This document shows, one piece after another, positions 59,401-64,000 of a stretch of 64,000 nt of DNA (its first letter is position 1; each line of letters begins with the position of its first letter). The notes below the pieces were generated by a model, which saw only the letters and a list, made by a program, of their open reading frames with translations, had not been told where the DNA came from and did no database searches. Made by a program: the position numbers and the translations under genes. The DNA is from Afipia massiliensis (lineage in GTDB: Bacteria; Pseudomonadota; Alphaproteobacteria; Rhizobiales; Xanthobacteraceae). The stretch spans positions 993,501-1,057,500 of the forward strand of contig NZ_LBIA02000001.1 of NCBI RefSeq assembly GCF_001006325.2. The letters run 5' to 3'.

Positions 59401-60675
59401 ATGAAACAGGCTTACGTACCGCGAACGACCAGTTACGGACTCAATCCGGGCGATGAACTGAACGATCTGCGCATGTCGGATCAGGTCCGGCCGCTTTTTG
59501 AGCACGTCAAGAAATTCATCCGGGAAACCGTCGATCCCATGCAGCTCGAATACGTTCGGCATGGTGAGGGCAAGAAGGATCGCTGGAGCTTCACGCCGGG
59601 CCAGCTCGATGTCCTGGGGAAAGCCAAGGCAAAAGCCAAGGAAGAAGGCCTGTGGAACTTCTTTCTGCCCGACGGTGAAACCGGCGAAGGTCTCAAGAAC
59701 CTCGACTACGCCTACATCGCGGTCGAGCTCGCGAAAAATCCGCTGGCATCTGAAACCATGAACTGCTCTGCGCCGGACACCGGCAATATGGAAGTGCTGG
59801 AGCGCGTCGGCACGAAAGAGCAAAAGGAAAAATGGCTGAAGCCGCTGCTGAACGGTGAAATCCGCTCGGCCTACGCCATGACCGAACCGAACGTTGCGTC
59901 CTCGGATGCCAAGAACATTTCGACCACCGCGAAACTCGTCGGCGATGAGTGGGTGATCAACGGCGAAAAGTATTACATCTCCGGTCTTGGCGATCCCCGC
60001 TGCAAGATCATGATCGTCATGGTGCAAACCAATCCCGACGCACCGCGGGGCAAGCAGCAGTCCCAGATTCTCGTGCCGGTTGACGCGCCCGGCGTTGAAG
60101 TCATCGGCCCGATGCATGTATTCGGGGCCGACCACGCGCCTCGCGGACACATGCATATGCGCTTCAACAATGTCCGTGTGCCGAAGGAGAATATCCTGCT
60201 CGGCGAAGGCCGCGGCTTCGAAATCTCGCAGGTCCGCCTTGGACCGGGCCGCATCCATCACTGCATGCGCACGATCGGAAAAGCGGAAAAGGCGCTCGAC
60301 CTGATGGTGTCACGCGGCCTGACGCGGGAAGCCTTTGGCAAGCAGATCGCGCATCTCGGCGGCAACCTCCAGATCATCGCGCAGGCACGCTGTGAGATCG
60401 AGGCGATGCGACTGATGGTGCTGAAGGCTGCCAAGGCCATGGATGTGCTGGGCAACAAGGAAGCTCGCGTCTGGGTCAGCATGGTCAAGGCCATGGTGCC
60501 CGAGCGCACCTGCAAGATCATCGACCAGGCGATTCAGATGCACGGCGCGACCGGCATTTCCGAATGGACGCCGCTCGCCGACATGTACGCTGACGTCCGG
60601 CATCTGCGCTTCGCCGACGGCCCCGACGAAGTGCACTGGATGGTCGTTGGCCGCCACGAACTGAGCATGGCGTAA
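59401..60675 (+). CDS. acyl-CoA dehydrogenase, ACAD10/11-like
   Basis: A 424-residue acyl-CoA dehydrogenase. FAD/substrate motifs are YAMTEPNVASSDAKNIST (near residue 158), INGEKYYISGLGDPRCKIMIVM and the C-terminal MHGATGISEWTPLADMYADVRHLRFADGPDEVHWMVVGRHEL. The N-terminus (LRMSDQVRPLFEHVKKFIRETVDPM) and this SEWTPLA tail are typical of ACAD10/11-type members, which act on 4-hydroxy or branched substrates. ATG 59401 has GGAG ten bases upstream. It stands alone, so no pathway is indicated. Confidence 0.9.
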   Translation: MKQAYVPRTTSYGLNPGDELNDLRMSDQVRPLFEHVKKFIRETVDPMQLEYVRHGEGKKDRWSFTPGQLDVLGKAKAKAKEEGLWNFFLPDGETGEGLKNLDYAYIAVELAKNPLASETMNCSAPDTGNMEVLERVGTKEQKEKWLKPLLNGEIRSAYAMTEPNVASSDAKNISTTAKLVGDEWVINGEKYYISGLGDPRCKIMIVMVQTNPDAPRGKQQSQILVPVDAPGVEVIGPMHVFGADHAPRGHMHMRFNNVRVPKENILLGEGRGFEISQVRLGPGRIHHCMRTIGKAEKALDLMVSRGLTREAFGKQIAHLGGNLQIIAQARCEIEAMRLMVLKAAKAMDVLGNKEARVWVSMVKAMVPERTCKIIDQAIQMHGATGISEWTPLADMYADVRHLRFADGPDEVHWMVVGRHELSMA

Positions 60676-60799
60676 TTCTGCATTGGAGCGCGATGATGTC
60701 TTTATAATCGCGCTCCGATGTCGCCCAGAATCCAAGCGAGCCTTGGGCTGGACGACATTGCCCTCCCCGACGGGCCGACAATAACTTTCCTGTGATGCC

Positions 60800-60825
60800 G
60801 TAACAAACCGCATTCTTGCTCCGAA
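60800..60825 (+). promoter_or_regulatory. candidate ECF-type promoter of the bufferin operon
   Basis: GTAACA (60800-60805) and CGAA (60822-60825) with exactly 16 bases between resemble the GTAACC-N16-CGAA promoters I recall for Caulobacter SigF, which drives its bufferin-type operons under metal stress. It would give a leader of about 70 bases. No sigF or nrsF-like gene is in the window. Nothing else promoter-like lies in the gap 60676-60903. Confidence 0.5.
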
Positions 60826-60903
60826 TTGAGTGGATGGCGGGTGCCGTACTCGCTGCCGGCATCAGACGCCAGGAATGCTTCAGTCGGATCAGAGGATCAT
60901 CCA

Positions 60904-61197
60904 ATGACTAAATCTGCCTTCACTGCCGCAACGCTCGCCGGCTCGCTCGCCACCGCCCTGACATTGATCGCCTCGCAGGCGACAGCGCAACCTGCCCCGG
61001 CGCAGGCCAACGCCGAGAAGTGCTATGGTGTATCGCTCGCAGGAAAGAACGACTGCGCCGCCGGCCCAGGCACCACCTGCGCCGGAACGTCCAAGGCCGA
61101 CTATCAAGGCAATGCCTGGAAGTATGTTCCCAAGGGCACCTGCGTTTCGATGAAGACACCCAAGGGCACGGGCTCGCTCTCGGTGATCAAGTCCTGA
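60904..61197 (+). CDS. bufA: bufferin precursor BufA1-type (DUF2282)
   Basis: A 97-residue DUF2282 protein, now known as the precursor of bufferins, copper-binding RiPPs. It has a signal peptide (1-29, ending TATAQ-like SQATAQ) and four core cysteines: Cys40 ([15 protein letters not shown]), Cys51, Cys59 ([22 protein letters not shown]) and Cys80 ([17 protein letters not shown]). The invariant [21 protein letters not shown] and QGNAW words match other members. Cys modified by the DUF692 enzyme would bind copper in the periplasm. ATG 60904 has AGAGGAT upstream. Overall base composition is lower in GC than the surrounding genes. Confidence 0.93.
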
Positions 61198-61205
61198 TTG
61201 TCCTG

Positions 61206-61231
61206 GGGGTGCGCCTTGAAGGCGCATCCCC
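61206..61231 (+). promoter_or_regulatory. intercistronic hairpin between precursor and enzyme genes
   Basis: GGGGTGCGCC (61206-61215) pairs with GGCGCATCCCC (61221-61231, one bulged T) around a TTGAA loop, starting eight bases after the bufA stop. It is followed by ATTCTCCTT, too few T for full termination. It probably stabilises or partly terminates the message so that precursor exceeds enzymes. Confidence 0.65.
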
Positions 61232-61254
61232 ATTCTCCTTGAGGGGCGTCTGTC

Positions 61255-62112
61255 ATGTCAGTTCTCACCCGGCTTCCCATCTCTTCAGGCATTGCGTTCA
61301 AACCGCAACATTTCCCTGCGATCATGGCTTCTGATCAGCCGGTCGGATTCTTTGAGATTCACGCAGAGAACTATATGGGTGACGGCGGCGCTCCGCATGC
61401 ACAGCTTCACGCGCTGCGCGAGCGATATGCTCTTTCGCTTCATGGCGTCGGCCTCTCGATCGGCTCTATGGGATCACTTGACCGCGATCATCTTGCGCGT
61501 CTCAAGCACCTTTGCGAGCATTACCAGCCGCACAGCTTCTCGGAGCATCTCGCATGGTCGTCGCACGGCGACGTTTACCTCAACGACCTGCTGCCCTTGC
61601 CCTATACGGAAGAGACGCTTGAGCGCGTCGTGGAGCATGTCGATCTCGTTCAATCCACACTTGGACGGCGAATGCTATTGGAGAATCCATCGGCCTATCT
61701 GGTATTTGCCGAAAGCGTTATTCCTGAGACGGAGTTTCTCGACACGGTCGCACGCCGCACCGATTGTGGCCTGCTGCTCGACGTCAACAATGTTTTCGTA
61801 TCGGCACGTAATCACAGCACGGATCCTCTCGCCTACCTCGCGCAGTTTCCGCTGCATCGCGTCGGCGAGATCCATCTTGGCGGCCACGATGAGCAGGCCG
61901 ACGAACATGGCGATCCACTACTGATCGATGCGCACGGCACACCAATAGCGGAGCCGGTCTGGCGCTTGTACGAGTATGTGATCGAGAAGATCGGCCCTCT
62001 GCCTACGTTGATCGAGTGGGACAACGAAGTGCCGGAATGGCATGTCCTCGCCGCGGAGGCGCAGCGCGTGAATGCAATCCTCACCCGCCAGCGTTTGGCA
62101 GTCGCAATCTGA
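61255..62112 (+). CDS. bufB: MbnB-like multinuclear iron oxidase BufB1-type (DUF692)
   Basis: A 285-residue TIM-barrel enzyme of the DUF692/MbnB family that uses two or three Fe ions and O2 to modify precursor Cys. Likely metal ligands are visible in [14 protein letters not shown] (near residue 33), [54 protein letters not shown] and [10 protein letters not shown]. The next gene is its obligatory DUF2063 partner, only eight bases away. It would act in the cytoplasm on the precursor before export. Confidence 0.93.
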
Positions 62113-62120
62113 GAGCGGAT

Positions 62121-62912
62121 ATGTTTGCGGATATGCAAGCCATTTTTATCCAGGCGCTGCTCGATCCCGACAAGCCGGTCCCCGCTTCGGTTACGTCCTA
62201 TCGGACTGGCGTGCCCGTGAAGCGCTTTGCGGTTTACCGCAACAACGTCATTGCAGGCCTTGTCGAAGCCATGCGCGCGGGCTTTCCGATCGTAGAGCGC
62301 ATCGTCGGCGCAGATTTTTTTGCGGCGACGGCACGGCTCTATGCGATCAACCGCCCGCCGCGCTCACCATTGATGCTGCGCTATGGCGACGATTTTCCGG
62401 AATTCCTGTCGCACTTTCCGCCGGCAGCGGAACTTCCCTACCTCGCTGACGTGGCGCGGCTGGAACTGGCGCGTCGACTTGCCTATCACGCAGCTGACGC
62501 AGAACCGCTGCGCATAGAACTTATAACGACACTTACCCCGGATGCGCTCGCCGAATCCCGGCTAACGATTCACCCCTCCGTATCAATCGTCAGATCACGG
62601 CACCCGATTTTCACTATCTGGGCGATGAACAGCGGCGATATAGAACTCACGCCGATCGATGAAGACGCCGCCGAAGACGCGCTCGTCACACGCGCCAATC
62701 TCGAAGTCACTGTTCACAGGATGTTTTCTGGCGGCGCTGCGTTTCTTCAATGTCTTATGGCCGGCAATACATTCGGCGCAGCAGCCAGCACGGCTCTCAA
62801 GGATAACGCCGACTTCGACTTAACTGCCAATCTCGCAATGCTGATCGGCTCCGGCGCAATCATCGATGTTCAGCGCACGGCGGAAGGAGTTCCGAATGAC
62901 CAGTGCATTTAA
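62121..62912 (+). CDS. bufC: DUF2063 partner protein BufC1-type (HvfC/BufC)
   Basis: A 263-residue protein. The N-terminal DUF2063 domain is clear: FIQALLDPDKPVPASVTSYRTGVPVKRFAVYRNNVIAGLVEAMRAGFPIVERIVGADFFAATARLY (residues 9-73, split). The C-terminal part resembles the MbnC-like fold (AADAEPLRIELI..., LEVTVHRMFSGGAAFLQCLMAG). It should form a complex with the DUF692 oxidase and deliver the precursor. ATG 62121 is nine bases after the bufB stop. Its 3' end overlaps the DoxX gene by 17 bases, so translation is coupled. Confidence 0.9.
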   Translation: MFADMQAIFIQALLDPDKPVPASVTSYRTGVPVKRFAVYRNNVIAGLVEAMRAGFPIVERIVGADFFAATARLYAINRPPRSPLMLRYGDDFPEFLSHFPPAAELPYLADVARLELARRLAYHAADAEPLRIELITTLTPDALAESRLTIHPSVSIVRSRHPIFTIWAMNSGDIELTPIDEDAAEDALVTRANLEVTVHRMFSGGAAFLQCLMAGNTFGAAASTALKDNADFDLTANLAMLIGSGAIIDVQRTAEGVPNDQCI

Positions 62913-63372
62913 TGATCAAACTCTCCGTGCCCGTTCTTCGGATTTAGTGGAAAAGTTCGTCGGATTGCTGGATCAGATTCCCCACTGGCTCATCGCACTG
63001 ATTGCGCGACTGTCAATCGCCGGCGTGTTCTGGCGGTCAGGGGCGACAAAAATCGAAGGGTTTCGCGTTACGGAAGGCGCGATCGAACTGTTTCGCAGTG
63101 AATATCGACTGCCGCTGATTGATCCAACACTTGCGGCTCATCTCGCCGCGATCAGCGAGCACCTTTTTCCGATCTTGCTGGTCATCGGCTTCGCGACGCG
63201 ACTGTCGGCACTGGCTCTCCTCGGCATGACACTCGTGATTCAGATTTTTGTTTACCCCGACGCTTGGCCAACGCACGGGACATGGGCGGCGTGCCTGCTG
63301 ATTTTAGTTGCTCGCGGCGCCGGATACCTTTCACTGGATCACCTGATCTCTCGCGGTCAACGGGCGGCGTAG
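62896..63372 (+). CDS. DoxX family membrane protein of the bufferin operon
   Basis: A 158-residue, four-helix DoxX protein. Features: LIALIARLSIAGVFWRSGATKIEGF (helix 1 plus the DoxX motif), LAAISEHLFPILLVIGFATRLSALALLGMTLVIQIFVYPDAWPTHG and a final helix LLILVARGAGYLSLDHLI. DoxX proteins commonly close DUF2282-DUF692-DUF2063 operons; a redox or quinone-linked membrane role is suspected. ATG 62896 lies inside bufC with a strong GGAAGGAG site. Confidence 0.92.
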   Translation: MTSAFNDQTLRARSSDLVEKFVGLLDQIPHWLIALIARLSIAGVFWRSGATKIEGFRVTEGAIELFRSEYRLPLIDPTLAAHLAAISEHLFPILLVIGFATRLSALALLGMTLVIQIFVYPDAWPTHGTWAACLLILVARGAGYLSLDHLISRGQRAA

Positions 63373-63775
63373 ACGACAACCGGAAAGCCGACGCGTCTCG
63401 GTCAGGGGCATGGGGTAGAGACTCTGGACACCAACCCCCGAGCATACCCAAGACGGGGGATGCAACGCGTTCCCGCGAGTCTCGGCAGCGCTGCTGCAAC
63501 CGTCTTTTCAGACTTTAAAACAGTCACTTAGGAGATATCAGGCGATGAGGTGAGTAGGCCTGATGGTGCCCAGGGGCGGGTTGTCAGATTCCCCAAGAAA
63601 CACAAGCAAAATCAACGGACTACGGCCACCAATTTTCCGTCGTTTGTACCAACAAGATGTACCGGCCCGAAACGCCTTTGGCCACCGAAACCTGCATGAC
63701 AAGAACGCTTAAACCGTAAACCAGCGTTTATGTTTGACGGACAACCCGTGAAGGGCGAAGGCTCACGCCCGCAAA
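63373..63775. other. gene-free region between DoxX and the GreA-like gene
   Basis: About 400 bases of lower GC content. A 49-codon frame (63563-63712, ATG to TAA) has no good ribosome site, and an AGGAG site at 63531 leads only to ATG-AGG-stop. Neither is a convincing gene. A weak hairpin GGGCG/CGCCC (63753-63770) may terminate the leftward greA-like message. I see no RNA gene or insertion element. Confidence 0.45.
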
Positions 63776-64000
63776 CTAAGAGATGCGAAGAATTTCAATT
63801 TCCTTGTCTCCCGTCCCAACAACGTCGCCCACCGATTTGCCCATTAGCATCCTTGCAATAGGAGACACGAACGAAATCGATCCTGCCTTCGGGTCAGCTT
63901 CGTCCTCTCCAACAATGCGATAGTCCTGCACGCGGCCGTCACTCCGATTAAACGTAACAGTGCTCCCAAAAGCCACAATGTCCACCCTTGTCGGGTCCGG
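63776..64000 (-). CDS. GreA/GreB-family transcription elongation factor (N-terminus cut off)
   Basis: The visible C-terminal 74 residues have the FKBP-like domain of Gre factors: VAFGSTVTFNRSDGRVQDYRIVGEDEADPKAGSISFVSPIARMLMGKSVGDVV (split), close to the consensus VxFGAxVxxxD...YxIVGxxEADxxxGxISxxSPIARALxGKxxGD. The coiled-coil N-terminal domain lies beyond the right edge. It might be GreA or one of the Gre-like paralogs; the canonical greA/greB assignment cannot be made from this part. Confidence 0.9.
   Translation of the reverse strand, partial: PDPTRVDIVAFGSTVTFNRSDGRVQDYRIVGEDEADPKAGSISFVSPIARMLMGKSVGDVVGTGDKEIEILRIS

Follow-up and report, generated by a model that had tools for sequence, protein, structure and literature searches.

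Bufferins and their kin are very common ribosomally synthesized and post-translationally modified peptides (RiPPs) of Pseudomonadota, and according to PMC12452194 the collection of Buf1 and Buf2 bufferins, at under 90% redundancy, numbered in the thousands by 2025. The Fig. 3 legend of that paper describes Buf1 bufferins as modified at the central cysteines and disulfide-bonded between the first and last; the paper also reports copper binding and improved growth in copper. For the 5-thiooxazole, PMC12668002 gives a change of –4 Da per site and an absorbance at about 305 nm. The Buf1 operon of Caulobacter vibrioides (CC3254–CC3257; CCNA_03363–03366) is preceded by a sigma-F-type promoter motif, as reported in PMC3511200. 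The sigma-F regulon was reported to be up with copper in every tested condition, and a sigF::Tn5 strain to grow poorly in copper (PMC8224329). Herein, we describe an operon of Afipia massiliensis that lies in a 64,000-nucleotide stretch of contig NZ_LBIA02000001.1 (assembly GCF_001006325.2, positions 993,501 to 1,057,500, forward strand), called the window below. Judged by its sequence, it is an ordinary Buf1 (DUF2282) bufferin operon, a class already in print. It is likened to the Caulobacter operon by its four identical families in the identical order bufA-bufB-bufC-doxX, and the promoter motif likewise precedes the precursor gene. Its features, numbered from the first letter of the window, are as follows.

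60904..61197, plus strand: bufA, DUF2282 bufferin precursor of 97 aa with Cys40, Cys51, Cys59 and Cys80 and an N-terminal signal-like segment (Pfam DUF2282, 88.5 bits, cut-off 22.4)
61255..62112, plus strand: bufB, MNIO (DUF692) bufferin maturase of 285 aa (NCBI equivalog NF050167 MNIO_BufB, 385.1 bits, cut-off 310; Pfam MbnB_TglH_ChrH, 354.7 bits, cut-off 25; match to 3bww; invariant active-site residues)
62121..62912, plus strand: bufC, DUF2063 partner protein of 263 aa with an RRE-type domain (PME-type 1) (Pfam DUF2063, 86.7 bits, cut-off 27.2; structure model and Foldseek)
62896..63372, plus strand: doxX, DoxX membrane protein of 158 aa when counted from the likelier start (Pfam DoxX, 67.2 bits, cut-off 23.6)
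60800..60825, plus strand: sigma-F-type promoter motif GTAAC-N17-CGAA, 78 nt upstream of the bufA start codon (exact match, spacing, recurrence in relatives)
61204..61232, plus strand: hairpin with a 13-bp stem and a 3-nt loop between bufA and bufB (also present in related operons)

The genes follow the standard bufferin order on the plus strand over window positions 60904–63372, and all four reading frames are intact. A preliminary description, made from the letters of this stretch, had placed a four-cysteine precursor before DUF692 and DUF2063 genes with an overlapping doxX and had named the whole a bufferin-type RiPP operon. All of these genes were found where it had put them, with family scores far above the cut-offs, and the family models, the conserved residues and the BufC fold support the name. 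The longest doxX open reading frame (ORF) begins at 62866. The likelier start is the ATG at 62896, preceded by GGAAGGAG, which leaves an overlap of 17 nt with bufC. The role of DoxX, described at the outset as undescribed, is still so to judge by PMC13419390, where the DoxX partner of the related hvf operon is termed uncharacterized. The genome holds a single DUF2282 match and a single MNIO match (E ≤ 0.001).

The cysteine pattern of the precursor is nearly universal among its relatives. In an alignment of 121 precursors, from our own and fetched loci and with the precursor of the window counted twice, Cys40 is present in every row and Cys51, Cys59 and Cys80 each in 120. All four cysteines of the compared stretch are present in 120 rows, and the remaining one has two; related loci, here and throughout, are not independent of one another. 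The N-terminus of BufA is hydrophobic, with A-T-A before Q29 (by eye), and the N-termini of the relatives are similar. By visual inspection, cleavage of a Sec-type signal would be expected after A26-T27-A28, leaving about 69 residues. The 97-residue product named in the preliminary description is thus the length of the precursor, and the mature peptide is expected to be shorter. Its modification of the cysteines also stands in part: since the central cysteines of Buf1 are modified and the first and last are disulfide-bonded (Fig. 3 legend, PMC12452194), two modified cysteines are expected and four are not. By analogy, the expected product is a mature peptide of roughly 69 residues with a change of about –8 Da plus the disulfide. 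Two DUF2282-type precursor genes per locus were seen in eight other loci (L030, L034, L037, L042, L057, L082, L083 and L108), and some of the extra precursors have a shortened middle (CAAGK-HDCAG).

The active-site residues of BufB are conserved. It scored 385.1 bits with the BufB model, 243.4 with the HvfB model and 45.8 with the MbnB model. It had been called an MbnB-like oxidase at first; the MNIO (DUF692) family was right, but the BufB and HvfB models score far above that of MbnB. Across 112 BufB sequences there is no variation at E34, H63, H98, E143, D176, N179, H207, D225, H227, E254 and D256. Among solved structures, 3bww is the nearest in sequence (E 2.2e-41) and is described as containing a diiron cluster (PMC13419390). 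D225 and H227 map to the HvfB motif that contains D242 and H244, and loss of these two is reported to have abolished activity (PMC13419390); D256 maps to the motif of FonB D249, the proposed catalytic base (PMC12668002); because the mapping was made by motif through 3bww, the numbering may be off by one. The AlphaFold2 model of BufC is confident, with a predicted local distance difference test score (pLDDT) of 94.1. Its only three PDB hits in Foldseek with E ≤ 0.001 are TglI (8hci_A, 8hi7_A) and NGO1945 (3dee), which are MNIO partner proteins. By sequence, no PDB relative of BufC or of BufA was found at a meaningful E-value.

The promoter motif was then compared with its counterparts in the related loci. 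Exact GTAAC-N17-CGAA occurs once in the window, against 0.12 expected in shuffles, and is one base off the Caulobacter pattern GTAACC-N16-CGAA given in PMC3511200. With a spacer of 16–18, the motif was found exactly before 41 of 115 bufA genes and with at most one mismatch before 65, compared with 0 and 7 for the reversed pattern. These genes come from 107 relatives' loci, some of them duplicated (e.g., L022/L117), and the count at one mismatch includes some sites at odd distances. Among the 30 bufA genes of the same-family loci L102–L130, the motif was exact in 20, had one mismatch in 7 and was absent in 3; it is missing before bufA in many rhodobacterial loci. Sigma genes carry the motif as well. 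With a spacer of 15–18 and at most one mismatch, it preceded all 50 sigma genes that diverge from bufA (exactly in 38; 7 of 50 in the reversed control), 26 of 34 unlinked ones (reversed control, 7 of 34) and none of the 5 that lie downstream on the operon's strand, a few duplicated loci being included in these rows. Upstream of two genes, one coding for a DsbD_TM protein and the other for a member of the carboxymuconolactone decarboxylase family, lie intergenic GTAAC-N16-CGAA sites (L214 and L225); both genes are candidates for control by the resident sigma factor. At three Oxidored_molyb loci, kin of the Caulobacter msrP target, no CGAA motif was found, and one CGTA variant was present in L212.

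The hairpin between bufA and bufB recurs similarly. A stem of at least 10 bp was found in 56 of 78 bufA-bufB gaps, our own included, compared with 4 of 78 upstream segments; in the coding control, 9 of 78 loci had such a stem in any of up to three coding segments. The folding z-score was below –2 in 42 of the 78 gaps. The comparison set consists of the best 80 relatives and therefore leans to close ones, and the hairpin test was run without L077 and L089, in which no bufA was found, and without L085, where the gap spans 226 nt. As the loci are non-independent and only 20 of the 78 stems have a T-rich tail, both a stabilizer and a leaky terminator are possible.

No regulator gene adjoins the operon of the window; a linked sigF-nrsF is known in only part of the Buf1 clusters and is not required. 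The sole NrsF match in this genome lies at contig positions 4420496–4421104, beside a gene for an extracytoplasmic function (ECF) sigma factor with an exact N16 motif. By contig numbering, 3.4 Mb separate this match from the operon; on a circular chromosome the shorter route would measure about 1.1 Mb. Among 198 same-family genomes, 62 have DUF2282, and in at least 34 of these an NrsF match stands divergently beside bufA, at 847–1214 bp. Two genus-mates (G106 and G197; loci L161:4887-9138 and L163:2846-6735) carry, after doxX on the same strand, a sigma gene together with an NrsF-like gene that has diverged strongly, and no GTAAC-N-CGAA was found before that sigma gene in either locus. The operon is perhaps switched on by a regulator encoded elsewhere in the genome.

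The surroundings of the operon bear on how it came to be apart from such a regulator, and three further features mark them.

60764..63561: operon-bearing 2.8-kb segment, absent at this site in the genus-mates G197 and G214; G+C 0.583
59401..60675, plus strand: acyl-CoA dehydrogenase-like gene (named by eye), conserved left flank outside the operon, 95–96% identical in G214 and G197 over 900 bases
63562..63580, plus strand: 19-bp exact copy of the 3' end of tRNA-Phe, marking the left edge of a probable 80.8-kb island, outside the operon

Similarity to G197 and G214, which have the best matches to the dehydrogenase gene in the genus, stops at 60758 and 60763. In both genomes a tRNA-Phe gene lies about 120 nt past the end of similarity, close behind the dehydrogenase gene. 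Our sequence from 50000 onwards gave no match past that point to the next 17–18 kb of these relatives, whose sequence is regained about 83.6 kb later, at contig position 1137852. An MNIO match is lacking in G214 altogether, and G197 has a different copy elsewhere, with BufB 58.5% identical. The G+C of the operon segment is below that of the lowest sampled 2.8-kb stretch in window positions 1–60675 (0.586). An MNIO match was found in 13 of 29 genus genomes, 11 of them above the cut-off. In a BufB tree of 60 of the 112 sequences, a branch with support of 100/98 separates BufB of the window from 10 other genus rows and leaves it among Pseudolabrys and other same-family rows, its exact position there being weakly supported. 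The operon was probably acquired from another bacterium. The simplest explanation is that it entered this lineage without sigF-nrsF; the same distribution may instead reflect old copies that were lost in some genomes and kept in others. A literature search pairing bufferins with genomic islands found nothing, and the words horizontal, mobile and promoter are absent from the main text of PMC12452194. Neither the hairpin nor the mobility of bufferin operons was mentioned in the literature searched, although both may still be published.

The operon sits just outside the left repeat of the island, which runs from window positions 63562–64000 on to contig position 1137912 (L004, L198, L208, L209, L207) between two 19-bp repeats of the tRNA-Phe end. 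The second copy lies at the tRNA-Phe gene (contig 1137896–1137971, L207), and shuffled sequence would yield such a repeat 0.04 times when as many as 3 mismatches are allowed. The repeats and the tRNA-Phe gene, like the position of tRNA-Phe in G197 and G214, fit a tRNA-integrated island. A stretch of about 45 nt next to the tRNA 3' end in G214 was found at the right end of the island and not at the left, a misfit to a single clean integration, so the island junctions likely stem from more than one event. The island carries ABC-transport and catabolic genes (named by eye, as was gene quality around island genes and N17 sites judged), with a GreA/GreB-type gene (70.4 bits) at its left end and a tyrosine-integrase-like ORF at its right, tRNA end, a weak match of 23 bits under the 27.1 of Pfam. 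A restriction-modification pair at L207:5671-7631 consists of a C5 cytosine methylase (DruM2, 513 bits; MTase_II, 327 bits) with a type II restriction enzyme (442 bits) after it. Two adjacent genes at L207:352-2541 gave weak matches to ZorA/ZorB, which are MotA/MotB-like (16.4 and 17.7 bits).

We consider it likely that this is a Buf1 bufferin operon induced by copper through NrsF and an ECF sigma factor, with a product that sequesters periplasmic copper. We infer the induction, chemistry, export, copper binding and hairpin function of this operon as follows, with the thiooxazole chemistry and the copper role carried over by analogy from the Caulobacter bufferin, fontiphorin, oxazolin and gonophorin as described in PMC12452194 and PMC12668002. 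Excess copper or another thiophilic metal would disturb the membrane anti-sigma factor NrsF and free the resident ECF sigma factor. The freed factor, encoded elsewhere on the chromosome, would read the promoter at 60800–60825 and give a bufA-bufB-bufC-doxX transcript, on which the hairpin after bufA probably allows more precursor than enzyme. In the cytoplasm, BufC would present the precursor through its RRE-type domain to the iron enzyme BufB, which would convert the central C51 and C59 to 5-thiooxazoles with a change of about –4 Da apiece; C40 and C80 would pair in a disulfide. The peptide would be exported by Sec, trimmed near residue 28 and sequester periplasmic copper, and DoxX would act in the membrane.

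Several results weigh against this explanation. Genome-wide, neither spacing of the motif is in excess over the reversed pattern (N17, 16 compared with 16; N16, 14 compared with 62), and no regulon is claimed for that reason. The resident NrsF falls into a nine-row clade of unlinked NrsF (support 99/100; 81 of 89 sequences used, six loci being left out as five duplicates and one truncated, and two identical sequences dropped). Five rows of this clade come from genomes with no DUF2282 match, which suggests that the original task of the resident NrsF was something else. The spacers differ too, as the promoter of the resident sigma gene itself has N16 and that of bufA N17. Caulobacter deletions of sigF, CC2906 or CC3255 were reported to be irrelevant to chromium and cadmium survival (PMC3511200), and the homologous cluster of Cupriavidus metallidurans was reported not to affect copper resistance (PMC8224329). 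The AlphaFold2 model of BufA was poor (pLDDT 53.6) and was not used.

The motif counts would suit control by another promoter and regulator, with the motif at 60800 standing there by chance. However, a random site at the genome rate would fall into the 228-nt gap on the operon strand with p ~0.0004. Five of the 16 N17 sites lie outside long ORFs, and only the one at 60800 closely precedes a convincing gene (by eye). The single sigma-70-like site in 60600–63700 is on the minus strand, and the motif recurs before bufA in relatives, so we regard a chance motif as unlikely. It is rather improbable that the operon, having arrived without sigF-nrsF, is silent or poorly expressed cargo whose promoter the resident sigma factor does not read. 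The lack of an adjoining regulator gene, the unlinked nrsF in a clade other than the bufA-linked ones, the unequal spacers and the neighboring island would fit such cargo. Against it stand the four intact reading frames with their active-site residues kept, the exact promoter motif and several linked loci that combine N16 and N17 spacers between sigF and bufA (e.g., L031, L038, L045, L118).

The peptide could also be a working bufferin whose main job lies in another stress (gold, silver, chromate, cadmium, or a thiol or oxidant stress), copper binding being a side effect. The Caulobacter regulon is reported to be induced by chromate and cadmium as well (PMC3511200), the C. metallidurans cluster to respond to gold and silver besides copper (PMC8224329), and the two intergenic N16 sites before the DsbD_TM and carboxymuconolactone decarboxylase-family genes would fit a thiol-stress regulon. 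However, each of these two sites is a lone match, and the motif is not overrepresented in the genome. What PMC12452194 reports of Buf1 concerns copper; we give this role little credence. A different MNIO product is highly improbable; it would have the MNIO superfamily in common with the operon, but the partner is DUF2063. For methanobactin, which serves copper uptake, the MbnB model TIGR04159 gave 45.8 bits against a cut-off of 325. For Buf2, the BufA2 model NF050166 gave 20 bits against 60, and the precursor has four cysteines against the 6 or 12 of Buf2. For oxazolin and other EGKCG captophorins, the precursor is without the EGKCG repeat, HvfX scored 53.9 bits on DoxX under a cut-off of 80, and HvfC 37.3 bits under 142.

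Beyond the copper-induced Buf1 operon, we would tentatively propose, with more doubt than confidence, a wider pattern. Bufferin operons may move among Alphaproteobacteria without their regulator, the conserved sigma-F-type promoter joining them to the NrsF-ECF metal or thiol-stress regulon of the recipient and the recurring bufA-bufB hairpin setting the ratio of precursor to enzyme. The promoter motif, the unlinked regulator, the hairpin and the island border are points beyond the preliminary description, and the last three somewhat raise the usefulness of this locus over that of an average bufferin match. It provides a clear natural example of a bufferin operon separated from its regulator. 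The promoter and the hairpin lend themselves to simple reporter assays, and the locus bears on the role of DoxX, on the control of operons that have no linked sigF-nrsF and on how much precursor is made per enzyme.

Among known systems, the oxazolin (hvf) and fontiphorin (fon) clusters likewise pair an MNIO enzyme with a PME-type 1 partner and yield 5-thiooxazoles according to PMC12668002, but their precursors carry EGKCG repeats where that of the window belongs to DUF2282. The gig operons of C. metallidurans and Legionella pneumophila, likened by description, are metal-induced bufferin clusters by another name (PMC12452194, PMC8224329). In the same family, BufB of the Pseudolabrys and Pseudorhodoplanes bins L022–L026 is 70–72% identical to ours over the best segment. 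The order bufA-bufB-bufC-doxX is shared by L022, L023, L025 and L026, and the bufA motif by all five; unlike in the window, nrsF and a sigma gene stand divergently beside bufA. The Caulobacter system differs from ours in two ways: its sigF-nrsF (CC3253–CC3252) is reported to adjoin the operon, whereas ours is unlinked, and it has a second DUF2282 locus (CC2907), whereas the genome of A. massiliensis has one DUF2282 match.

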